A DNA stretch of 64,000 bases from an uncultured Mucispirillum sp. Its GTDB lineage: Bacteria > Chrysiogenota > Deferribacteres > Deferribacterales > Mucispirillaceae. Within the stretch, counting starts at the first letter, position 1. Every line of letters starts with the position of its first letter. Positions 5,437 to 20,307 of the stretch are shown here, in pieces. A program made the translations under genes and the position numbers. Location: the NCBI GenBank assembly GCA_944324465.1, contig CALUWI010000007.1, forward strand, positions 62,001 through 126,000, in the 5' to 3' direction. The notes below the pieces were generated by a model, which saw only the letters and a program-made list of their open reading frames with translations, did no database searches and was not told the origin of the DNA.

Positions 5437-6305
5437 GCATAATAAAAGATGTAATTGATAATAAAAAAATATCCCTTGCTCTTGATTCTGGCTCAGCAAA
5501 GGGAATGGCACATATTGGAGTAATAGAAACCCTTGAAAAAGAAGGATACCAGATTACAGCAGTAGCGGGCACTTCTATGGGCGCAATAGTTGCAGCCTAT
5601 TACTGTTTAGGAAAGCTGGATGTATTAAAATCATGGCTTACAGGCTTAAATAAAAAATCTACTTTTATGACACTTGATTTTTCCTTTTCAGGCGGTTTTA
5701 TTGGCGGCAAAAAATTAATGCAGGCCTTTGAGGAACATTTAGGGGATGCAACCTTTGCAGATGCTAAAATACCTTTATATATTATAGCCACTAATTTAGA
5801 TACAGGCAAAGAGCGTATTTTTTCAGAAGGAAGTATAATTCATGCAATAAGGGCAAGTATTTCTGTACCAGGTGTAATGCGTCCTTACTTATATGAAGGC
5901 AATTATTATGTGGATGGTGCAGTTACTAACCCGCTGCCTGTTGATGTGCTGCATAATAATAAGCATAAAAATATTGTAGCAGTTCATCTTCATGAATATA
6001 TAGAAGAAAGGGACAGCACATCTGCTCCAGGTGTACTTGAAACTATGAGCAGGTCTATGGGTATTGTATCACGATATCTTGCAAAAGCAAAAATGCAGGA
6101 AGCAATAGCAGTTATTGAGCCAAAAGTGGCAGGTATTGATATGTTTCACTTTTATCAGGCACAAGATGTGATTAACCGTGGTGCAAATGCTGCAAAAACA
6201 GCAGTAGAGCAGGGTGCATTAGACAGTATAGCTCTTAAAATATTAAATAACTTTAAAGAGAAAATAAGCGAAAGAATAGATTATATTATGAATAAGAAAA
6301 AATAG
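5433..6305 (+). CDS. Patatin-like phospholipase (RssA/NTE type)
   Basis: This 290-residue patatin-family serine acyl hydrolase shows an oxyanion-hole-like GSAKGMAHIGV, the nucleophile elbow GTSMG (Ser48) and the catalytic dyad Asp161 in VDGAVTNPLP. There is no signal peptide or transmembrane segment, as in RssA-type bacterial members. It starts inside the end of the metallo-hydrolase gene and ends at a convergent terminator. Likely a lysophospholipase or esterase on membrane lipids; the physiological role is unknown. Confidence 0.88.
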   Translation: MSIIKDVIDNKKISLALDSGSAKGMAHIGVIETLEKEGYQITAVAGTSMGAIVAAYYCLGKLDVLKSWLTGLNKKSTFMTLDFSFSGGFIGGKKLMQAFEEHLGDATFADAKIPLYIIATNLDTGKERIFSEGSIIHAIRASISVPGVMRPYLYEGNYYVDGAVTNPLPVDVLHNNKHKNIVAVHLHEYIEERDSTSAPGVLETMSRSMGIVSRYLAKAKMQEAIAVIEPKVAGIDMFHFYQAQDVINRGANAAKTAVEQGALDSIALKILNNFKEKISERIDYIMNKKK

Positions 6306-6327
6306 GAGCTGCTATATAACAGCCCCC
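6305..6327. terminator. Bidirectional terminator between convergent genes
   Basis: GGAGCTG pairs with CAGCCCC (one mismatch) across the 31-bp gap between the patatin gene and the convergent lipoprotein gene. T-rich tracts follow on both strands. Confidence 0.6.
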
Positions 6328-6336
6328 ATTTTATAT

Positions 6337-8184
<1,848 letters not shown>

Positions 8185-8216
8185 TTTTACCCTCCGTTTA
8201 AATATAGTGTATGGTG

Positions 8217-8245
8217 TATGTTATCACTGGGGGGGGGATTGTCAA
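8217..8245 (-). promoter_or_regulatory. Lipoprotein promoter with C9/G9 tract in spacer
   Basis: On the minus strand a perfect TTGACA (8240-8245) is followed by AT, nine C residues (G tract at 8229-8237 on the plus strand), then AGTGATAACATA. A -10-like TAACAT lies 16 bp after the -35 box, or AACATA at 17 bp. Change in tract length would alter promoter spacing, as in known poly-G/C phase-variable promoters. Box assignment for the -35 is clear; the -10 is weaker. Confidence 0.65.
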
Positions 8246-8263
8246 GTTATTTCTGCATTTGCC

Positions 8264-8689
8264 TTACCCCCATTTTTTTAAAACTGCATGGAACAGTCAT
8301 TATTTTACAGTAAAATTTGTGTTTTATATTTTCTAATAATATGTATTTTTATAATATTTTACACTATCTTACCGCCGCAAATCTCATAAAGCAAACTTTT
8401 TGTTATTTCATTCCTTATGCTCCGAATTGCATAATCATTCACAATTTTTTCTTCATTGCTGCAGCAACTCGCTTCACTCAAACAATCTGACAGCAAAACA
8501 TTACGAAAAAATTGCTCATATACAATTAAGTCGCAAAGATAATGAAATAACACGGGGGCTCTTTTAAATGCGGATAAAAAACATATTAATATTATATTAT
8601 TTTTTAAAAGTCTATTTTTATACTTATAAAACATTTTCTTGTTTATTATTAAATAGTTATAAATATTCTTGTAAAAAAAATGGGGGTAA
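8264..8689. repeat. Inverted-repeat element, copy B (MITE-like)
   Basis: This element of about 426 bp has 16-bp terminal inverted repeats (TTACCCCCATTTTTTT) and long near-identical blocks shared with 1710-2206. It is shorter than copy A because of internal deletions. A 91-codon minus-strand frame (8359-8634) ending RNEITKSLLYEICGGKIV spans most of it, but copy A has stops and frameshifts in the matching frame, so coding status is doubtful. It lies 18 bp upstream of the lipoprotein -35 box. Confidence 0.75.
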
Positions 8690-8862
8690 AGTAGAAAAAT
8701 AATCCTTGAAAATTAGTATATATTAATAATATTTCTGATTTTTAGAGATGTCCCAAATAATATTTATTTAATAAAATAATACTTATATTCTAATTATACA
8801 CTACCATTTATTATTGCCAAATTAATGGGTAATGCTGTTAATATATAAGCTCAGCTTTTATT

Positions 8863-9327
8863 TTATAAGCCTTTATATTCGTAGTTATAATAATCAGAAA
8901 GTCTTTTATCAGCGCCAAGCAGATGGCTGTGATACCAGTCAGTAATAAAATCTGCAATATCTGTTAAAACACCTTCTACCCCTCTTTCATCATATTCATC
9001 TGCAGGTACATTTGTTCTTTTAAGCAGAAGTCTTTTTTTCAGAAGTTTTGCAACACCTAAATTAAATTTTTTATGGTCTGCTTTGTGTTCATCAAGTGAT
9101 GGATAATGGATACGTTCCATTAAATCTTCCTGAGATGGAAAATGCTTGTGAGAGTATTCTGTCAGATTATTTAAAATATTATCAAGCTGTTCTTCCCCGT
9201 TGCCAACATTTTTTGCATCTATAAATATATTTGCAAATCGTAAAAACTCTTTTGTATGGTTATCAAGAGCATAATCACCTAATTTTAAATCATCTACCCA
9301 TTCTAATGGTTTTATAGTCTTACTCAA
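8863..9327 (-). CDS. Bacteriohemerythrin
   Basis: Hemerythrin-like proteins bind O2 reversibly at a carboxylate-bridged di-iron site. The 154-residue single-domain protein shows the family pattern in order: EWVDDLKLGDYALDNHTKEF (first His), YSHKHFPSQEDLM (HF-x2-xE block), YPSLDEHKADHKKF (two His) and DWYHSHLLGADKRL (final His and Asp). The usual HFxxEE has Gln then Glu here. It overlaps the upstream membrane-protein gene by 4 bp, so the two are probably one operon. Oxygen sensing, storage or delivery in a microaerophile is the likely role. Confidence 0.9.
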   Translation of the reverse strand: MSKTIKPLEWVDDLKLGDYALDNHTKEFLRFANIFIDAKNVGNGEEQLDNILNNLTEYSHKHFPSQEDLMERIHYPSLDEHKADHKKFNLGVAKLLKKRLLLKRTNVPADEYDERGVEGVLTDIADFITDWYHSHLLGADKRLSDYYNYEYKGL

Positions 9328-20063: not shown

Positions 20064-20094
20064 TTGACATTTTGCAAGCGGGGGGGGGTATGAT
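20064..20094 (+). promoter_or_regulatory. Promoter with G9 tract in spacer
   Basis: A perfect TTGACA (20064-20069) and a strong TATGAT (20089-20094) are separated by 19 bp, the last nine of which are G (20080-20088). At the optimal 17 bp the tract would be G7, so slippage should tune expression. It drives the small gene at 20125 and probably the lipoprotein at 20356. Confidence 0.75.
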
Positions 20095-20124: not shown

Positions 20125-20307
20125 ATGGCTGACAAAATTAAACCAGAGGATAATGTATCAAATATGCAAAATCCTAATCCTGACACTGATGGCATAAATG
20201 AACAGTTTAAAGCAGCTCAGGACAACAGGTCAAATCAGTTAAATCCTAATAATCCAGCATACTGGAAAAGCAGGGGAATTGAGCCTGAAGATAAAGCTGG
20301 TAAATAG
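20125..20307 (+). CDS. Small hydrophilic protein, putatively phase-variable
   Basis: This 60-residue protein is very polar and rich in Asn, Asp and Pro. It lacks a signal peptide and Cys, and ends with NPNNPAYWKSRGIEPEDK. It has an ideal AAGGAGG site before ATG 20125. No family is recognised. Its promoter contains the G9 tract, and the small lipoprotein gene follows by 48 bp. Confidence 0.7.
   Translation: MADKIKPEDNVSNMQNPNPDTDGINEQFKAAQDNRSNQLNPNNPAYWKSRGIEPEDKAGK

Follow-up and report, generated by a model that had tools for sequence, protein, structure and literature searches.

Results and Discussion

A C tract in the promoter of a predicted lipoprotein gene

The window, by which we mean the whole 64-kb stretch of DNA analyzed here, carries on its minus strand an open reading frame (6337-8184, GTG start at 8184) whose translation is a predicted surface lipoprotein of 615 amino acids. 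The predicted surface location is based on a signal peptide and the lipobox VVYGC (Cys18). A tandem repeat search identified an 18-bp repeat of 20.9 copies (7704-8079, minus strand), which encodes an (NTGDGG)n stalk of 21 units; the orthologue in genome G013 has 20 units. The earlier note described the target as a predicted lipoprotein with a long repetitive stalk, and the signal peptide, the lipobox and the (NTGDGG)21 stalk agree with that description. The 615-residue protein matched no Pfam family, and its sole NCBIfam matches were far below the cut-off and rested on the repeat and the N-terminus. A terminator-like hairpin, identified solely by consensus match, lies 3′ of the gene (6299-6332, minus strand).

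The promoter and the Shine-Dalgarno sequence GGAGGG (8190-8195) lie on the same strand. Read along the minus strand, the promoter consists of TTGACA (8245-8240), AT (8239-8238), a run of nine C (8237-8229), AGTGA (8228-8224) and TAACAT (8223-8218). The -35 box agrees with the consensus at all six positions, and the C9 tract was also recovered in the run search of the window and the genome. TAACAT matches the -10 consensus at only four of six positions, and the promoter scan places a TG one base 5′ of it, which forms an extended -10 element, TGA (8224-8226). The two boxes are separated by 16 bp, and 33 nt lie between the promoter and the GTG start codon. It had been claimed that nine C residues fill the spacer between TTGACA and TAACAT. 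The perfect -35 box, the 16-bp distance and the C9 run are all as claimed, but the run takes up most of the spacer rather than all of it. The alternative -10 box, AACATA, gives a 17-bp spacer, as had also been stated.

A 426-bp repeated element (8264-8689), found by repeat comparison, ends 18 bp 5′ of the -35 box. Its 16-bp perfect terminal inverted repeats have the sequence TTACCCCCATTTTTTT, and partial or full matches to the element occur across the genus, with 44 in the host genome, 66 in G011 and 19 in G007.

G/C tracts in the window and in the host genome

The window has more runs of at least eight C or G than chance predicts: a search returned four overlapping octamer rows, equivalent to two runs, where 0.20 octamer matches were expected. 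The only run besides the C9 tract is a G9 tract on the plus strand (20080-20088), and it also lies in the spacer of a promoter-like sequence, between TTGACA (20064-20069) and TATGAT (20089-20094), where 10 nt plus G9 make a 19-bp spacer. Downstream is a gene for a hydrophilic protein of 60 amino acids (MADKIKPEDN..., 20125-20307, plus strand), identified by ORF translation and comparison, which is divergent from pyrH. TTGACA-N10-G9-TATGAT is kept at 31 nt in five genomes, all five with the 19-bp spacer, while the letters of N10 vary. The genes behind it are of at least two kinds, a hydrophilic protein of 60-64 amino acids in two genomes and a secreted proline-rich protein in two others.

We place the host in or beside Mucispirillum, in the phylum Deferribacterota (Deferribacteres in PMC5285517). 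Its genome (2.42 Mb in 31 contigs) has 35 G/C runs of at least eight, of which 2, 24, 8 and 1 are of length 8, 9, 10 and 11, respectively. Six of these runs are flanked by TTGACA and TANNNT, compared with 0.07 expected when random 9-nt blocks are placed in the same DNA. Five C-tract promoters are present in this genome, and all five are located 5′ of lipobox-bearing genes. Perfect TTGACA/TATAAT pairs, searched in the host genome to obtain the housekeeping spacing, were uninformative (22 matches versus 35 in the reversed control).

C-tract promoters recur throughout the genus

The pattern TTGACA-N0-6-C7-N0-8-TANNNT is present in 10 of the 15 genomes of the family, while reversed-pattern controls gave zero or one match per genome. 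It was found in nine of ten genomes of the host's genus (the host genome included), in the single genome of a third genus and in none of the four genomes of a second genus; the one same-genus genome lacking it is 57% complete. The stricter C8 pattern was found in 10 of 50 Deferribacterota genomes, and in none of the 35 that lie outside the family. The common form of the promoter is TTGACA-(T/A)T-C9-(A/G)TGATA(T/A)AAT.

Among 71 parsed promoters, tracts of 7, 8, 9, 10 and 11 occur 3, 6, 54, 7 and 1 times, in genomes that are mostly assembled from metagenomes, so that a given tract length may reflect a consensus or an error. Spacers of 13, 14, 15, 16, 17 and 19 bp occur 1, 8, 45, 10, 2 and 5 times; these counts depend on a -10 box chosen by script score, which gave L268 a 19-bp spacer when TAAAAT at 12 bp is equally plausible, accepted poor boxes at L222 and L271, and read the G013 copy of the window promoter (L259) as TATAAC at 14 bp and the window copy as TAACAT at 16 bp. 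The 15-bp spacer is shared by 43 of the 54 C9 promoters. Such uniformity would be expected if the C9 run were a fixed promoter element, kept by selection for the DNA shape of the spacer or for a bound regulator, with expression that is not phase variable. The constant 31 nt of the G9 version, despite its changing N10 letters, could be read in the same way.

The first genes mostly start 23-50 nt after the -10 box (commonest, 28-32 nt), which is the distance expected of real promoters. A lipobox is found in 43 of 64 scored targets, the corresponding figure for window ORFs being 4 of 54. The 64 exclude, from the 71 promoters, six without an ORF by the rule used and one with a target shorter than 50 amino acids, and lipoboxes were recognized by a regular expression; the four window ORFs that pass include the target itself and one that seems, on inspection, to be a false match. 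The targets (n = 65) form 37 protein groups, of which 24 are singletons. Thus, the promoter is common to unrelated lipoproteins and has not descended with a single family. Relatives of the window protein lead to the same view: of 13 examined, the eight with a placeable start lack both TTGACA and a tract in their upstream regions, which are AT-rich; this rules out inheritance of the promoter along with the protein family.

Similar promoters in other taxa

At least 111 stretches matching TTGACA-N1-4-C8-N0-3-TGNTANAAT were found in GTDB species genomes, which rules out a pattern unique to Mucispirillum. Among the matches listed are many from gut Clostridia with small genomes, and some from Treponema, Planctomycetota, Bipolaricaulota, WOR-3 and others. 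All such counts for taxa beyond the family are minimum values. The 91 rows first assigned to outside taxa included some from Mucispirillum, and 80 were left after their removal; a 16-bp spacer is found in 44 of these 80 promoters among the matches listed. Fifteen such genomes, picked because they matched and with overlapping rows counted, have between 1 and 14 occurrences of the pattern each, and reversed controls gave none. Promoters sharing a linker within one genome differ in tract length, as in G051 and G060 (C8 and C9), G056 (C9 and C10) and G061 (C9 and C11). G061, the genome behind L201, which is labelled as candidate division WOR-3, an uncultured phylum, has many C-tract promoters with the common linker AAAACAT and tracts from C9 to C11.

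Tract length differs between near-identical promoters

The difference between spacer and tract length is 6 in 53 of the 71 promoters and is nearly uncorrelated with tract length (correlation, -0.12). It follows that linkers do not compensate for the tract, and that a change of the tract shifts the spacing of the boxes. We then compared flanking sequences: 19 promoter pairs share at least 72% identity (some within one locus), and the six pairs with at least 98% identity, five from Mucispirillaceae and one from Clostridia, were used. Tract length differs in two of the six pairs and is equal in four. L053 (C9) and L252 (C7), from two species, show no substitution in 120 flanking positions, and L054 (C8) and L269 (C9) show 2 in 114.

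These comparisons bear on whether the C9 run is a fixed element. The window promoter might seem to speak for it, being C9 in both genomes that have the gene, but lengths of 7, 8, 10 and 11 exist without compensating linkers, identical flanks hold C9 and C7, and similar promoters inside one genome differ, as described for G051, G056, G060 and G061. Nine is also the commonest length among the coding tracts of the host genome, where there is no promoter. We therefore consider a fixed element unlikely, and a slippage-prone tract the better explanation.

The window site itself shows no length change. Its sole orthologue is in G013, and the two promoters differ by 1 substitution in 120 positions, which turns the extended -10 element from TGA into TTA. 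The similarity is concentrated in a block some 820 bp long (approximately 8051-8870) that takes in the signal peptide and the promoter as well as the repeated element. In 50-base bins between 8900 and 8051 there are three differences, one of them a gap, whereas bins outside the block are identical at 34 to 47 of 50 positions (68-94%). This block looks like a recent exchange between species that included the promoter, judging from the pattern of identity. A recent exchange would have left little time for the tract to change in length.

Mismatch repair influences how fast such tracts change, and mononucleotide slippage is slower where it is present than in organisms lacking it. Profile searches found both MutS1 (922 bits) and MutL (425 bits) intact in the host genome. 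Loss of mismatch repair is thus ruled out as a driver, and mononucleotide slippage should be slower here.

A model for phase-variable expression and its alternatives

The earlier note read the locus as a slippage-prone lipoprotein promoter, and this remains the best reading, since the architecture recurs genus-wide, the spacing changes along with the tract, and the tracts are of unequal length in two pairs of near-identical promoters. We infer from these observations that the two boxes are used, that tract length changes within populations and that levels of expression follow; we give a probability of about 0.8 to the C9 tract being the slippage-prone spacer of a sigma-70-type promoter that makes lipoprotein expression phase variable. 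Replication slippage would add or remove one or two bases of the C run, the changed run length would widen or narrow the gap between the -35 and -10 boxes, and the altered spacing would raise or lower transcription of the surface lipoprotein gene. The window promoter would then act as one of a genus-wide set, mostly placed before unrelated lipoprotein genes, and a population would present a changing mix of surface lipoproteins.

Sigma-70 promoters work with spacers of 16-18 bp. The window promoter, at 16 bp and with an extended -10 element and a weak -10 box, is thus probably weakly on at C9; on this analysis, it should be strongest at C10 (17 bp) and near off at C8 or fewer. The 15-bp (C9) and 19-bp (G9) spacers are both one base outside the working range, so that slippage by one base, if in the right direction, would turn the gene on.

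A second alternative accepts that the tract is prone to slippage, but holds that most transcription of the lipoprotein gene starts at a different promoter within the 600 bp upstream or reads through from the hemerythrin-like gene, in which case slippage would matter little. There is a strong same-strand sigma-70-like match at 8820-8793 (TTGGCA, 16 nt, TATAAT); however, the promoter scan of this region returned 26 promoter-like matches against 20.0 expected, which makes any single match weak evidence. The eight relatives without TTGACA or tract indicate that the protein family can be expressed without such a promoter. Nevertheless, the tract promoter of the window is at the standard 33 nt from its start codon, and the genus-wide set keeps the same spacing to different genes, so we consider expression mainly from elsewhere quite improbable. 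An accidental C run near box-like letters, or an assembly artefact of the kind to which homopolymer lengths are generally open, is hardly credible, as the recurrence in ten genomes with controls near zero and the six promoter-spacer tracts of the host genome contradict both, and the random-block and reversed-pattern controls rule out chance as the origin.

More tentatively, the slippage-prone promoters may together form a random surface regulon across the genus, poised mostly off, in which the promoter acts as a plug-in unit and is spread by recombination; given its recurrence in gut Clostridia with small genomes, Treponema, WOR-3 and others, it may even represent a widespread and little-noticed class in uncultured bacteria. 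We hold this wider reading to be somewhat less probable than not. The notion of a plug-in unit derives from the near-identical block of about 820 bp in two species and from the eight relatives without the promoter.

Comparison with known phase-variable systems

In Neisseria, the promoter-homopolymer architecture is found at few unrelated genes per genome, whereas here it is repeated at many lipoprotein genes and in another phylum. Homopolymers between the -10 and -35 boxes are established for porA, fetA and opc according to PMC2791445, which bears out the earlier statement that promoter-spacer homopolymers are a known cause of phase variation, as in porA and fetA. The likeness is close in that a surface-protein promoter there has a G/C homopolymer between its -35 and -10 boxes (PMC2791445), and the window promoter has its run of at least about eight in that very place. 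Length-dependent expression has been demonstrated for opc, porA and fetA, whereas it is a prediction for the promoters described here.

In Treponema pallidum, a poly-G tract lies between the -35 and -10 boxes of tp0126, with an optimum spacer of 17, and the poly-G tract of tprL has lengths of 7-11, mostly 9, as described in PMC7864442. Those are G tracts at outer-membrane proteins, whereas here the tracts are mostly sense-strand C at lipoprotein genes, but the mode of nine is shared with tprL. A mode of nine common to promoter tracts, coding tracts and tprL is more readily explained by a slippage equilibrium than by a fixed promoter element, although it is not proof. The vlp genes of Mycoplasma hyorhinis each have their own promoter homopolymer and encode proteins with size-variable repeats (PMC10502178). 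Likewise, several lipoprotein genes in the host genome each have their own promoter homopolymer; the vlp tracts, however, are poly-A and serve one homologous lipoprotein family, whereas the tracts here are poly-C and precede many unrelated families.

Mucispirillum dwells in rodent gut mucus and has been tied to inflammation in mouse models (PMC5285517). We found no report of phase variation in Mucispirillum in the open-access literature, as judged mostly from titles and the starts of abstracts; the main text of PMC5285517 does not contain "phase" or "slipped", and that of PMC9600240 does not contain "phase" or "homopolymer". The slippage mechanism is already known, and it is the genus-wide scale and the uniformity, in a little-studied phylum, that look new. 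If the tracts switch, each population would mix surface-lipoprotein states, with consequences for immune recognition, for sensitivity to phages and for comparisons between strains, and the clonal cultures of different laboratories would not be alike. The constant architecture also means that a rule relating tract length to expression could be tested on dozens of natural promoters together.

Other G/C tracts in the host genome

The number of tracts in the host genome (35 of at least eight) is similar to that in Campylobacter jejuni NCTC11168, which has 29 poly-G/C loci of at least seven (PMC4965091). The abstract of that study concerns reading-frame switching, whereas here 6 of the 35 tracts lie in promoter spacers, and MutS and MutL are present. 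The other 29 tracts of the host genome look like classical contingency loci by their sequence context. In a frame comparison, 12 of the 29 are in frame, near the one third expected if frames were random, with the count uncertain for tracts very near a start codon. Pfam matches among the tract genes include glycan-related families (RgpF twice, GT2, GT9, MBOAT and FdtA), type I specificity, two N6/N4 DNA methylases, a sulfatase-family enzyme, regulators, six molybdopterin oxidoreductases and others, while several tract genes have no Pfam match.

Six tracts are located at the 5′ end of genes for Tat-signal molybdopterin oxidoreductases that are DmsA-like (L031, L034, L046, L051, L057 and L058; for example, L046:4019-4027 and L058:4047-4056). 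Two of them, L046 and L057, are in frame, and the remaining four are out of frame. This pattern suggests that respiratory reductases are switched at random. Tracts in three further genes, two for DNA methylases and one for type I specificity (L032, L049 and L055), suggest phase-variable restriction-modification. Finally, seven G/C tracts lie inside 14 kb of a glycan region with RgpF, FdtA, GT2, MBOAT and GT9 (L043 and L044; contig C9 of the host genome, 111667-125330), which by its sequence is a dense cluster of putative contingency loci.
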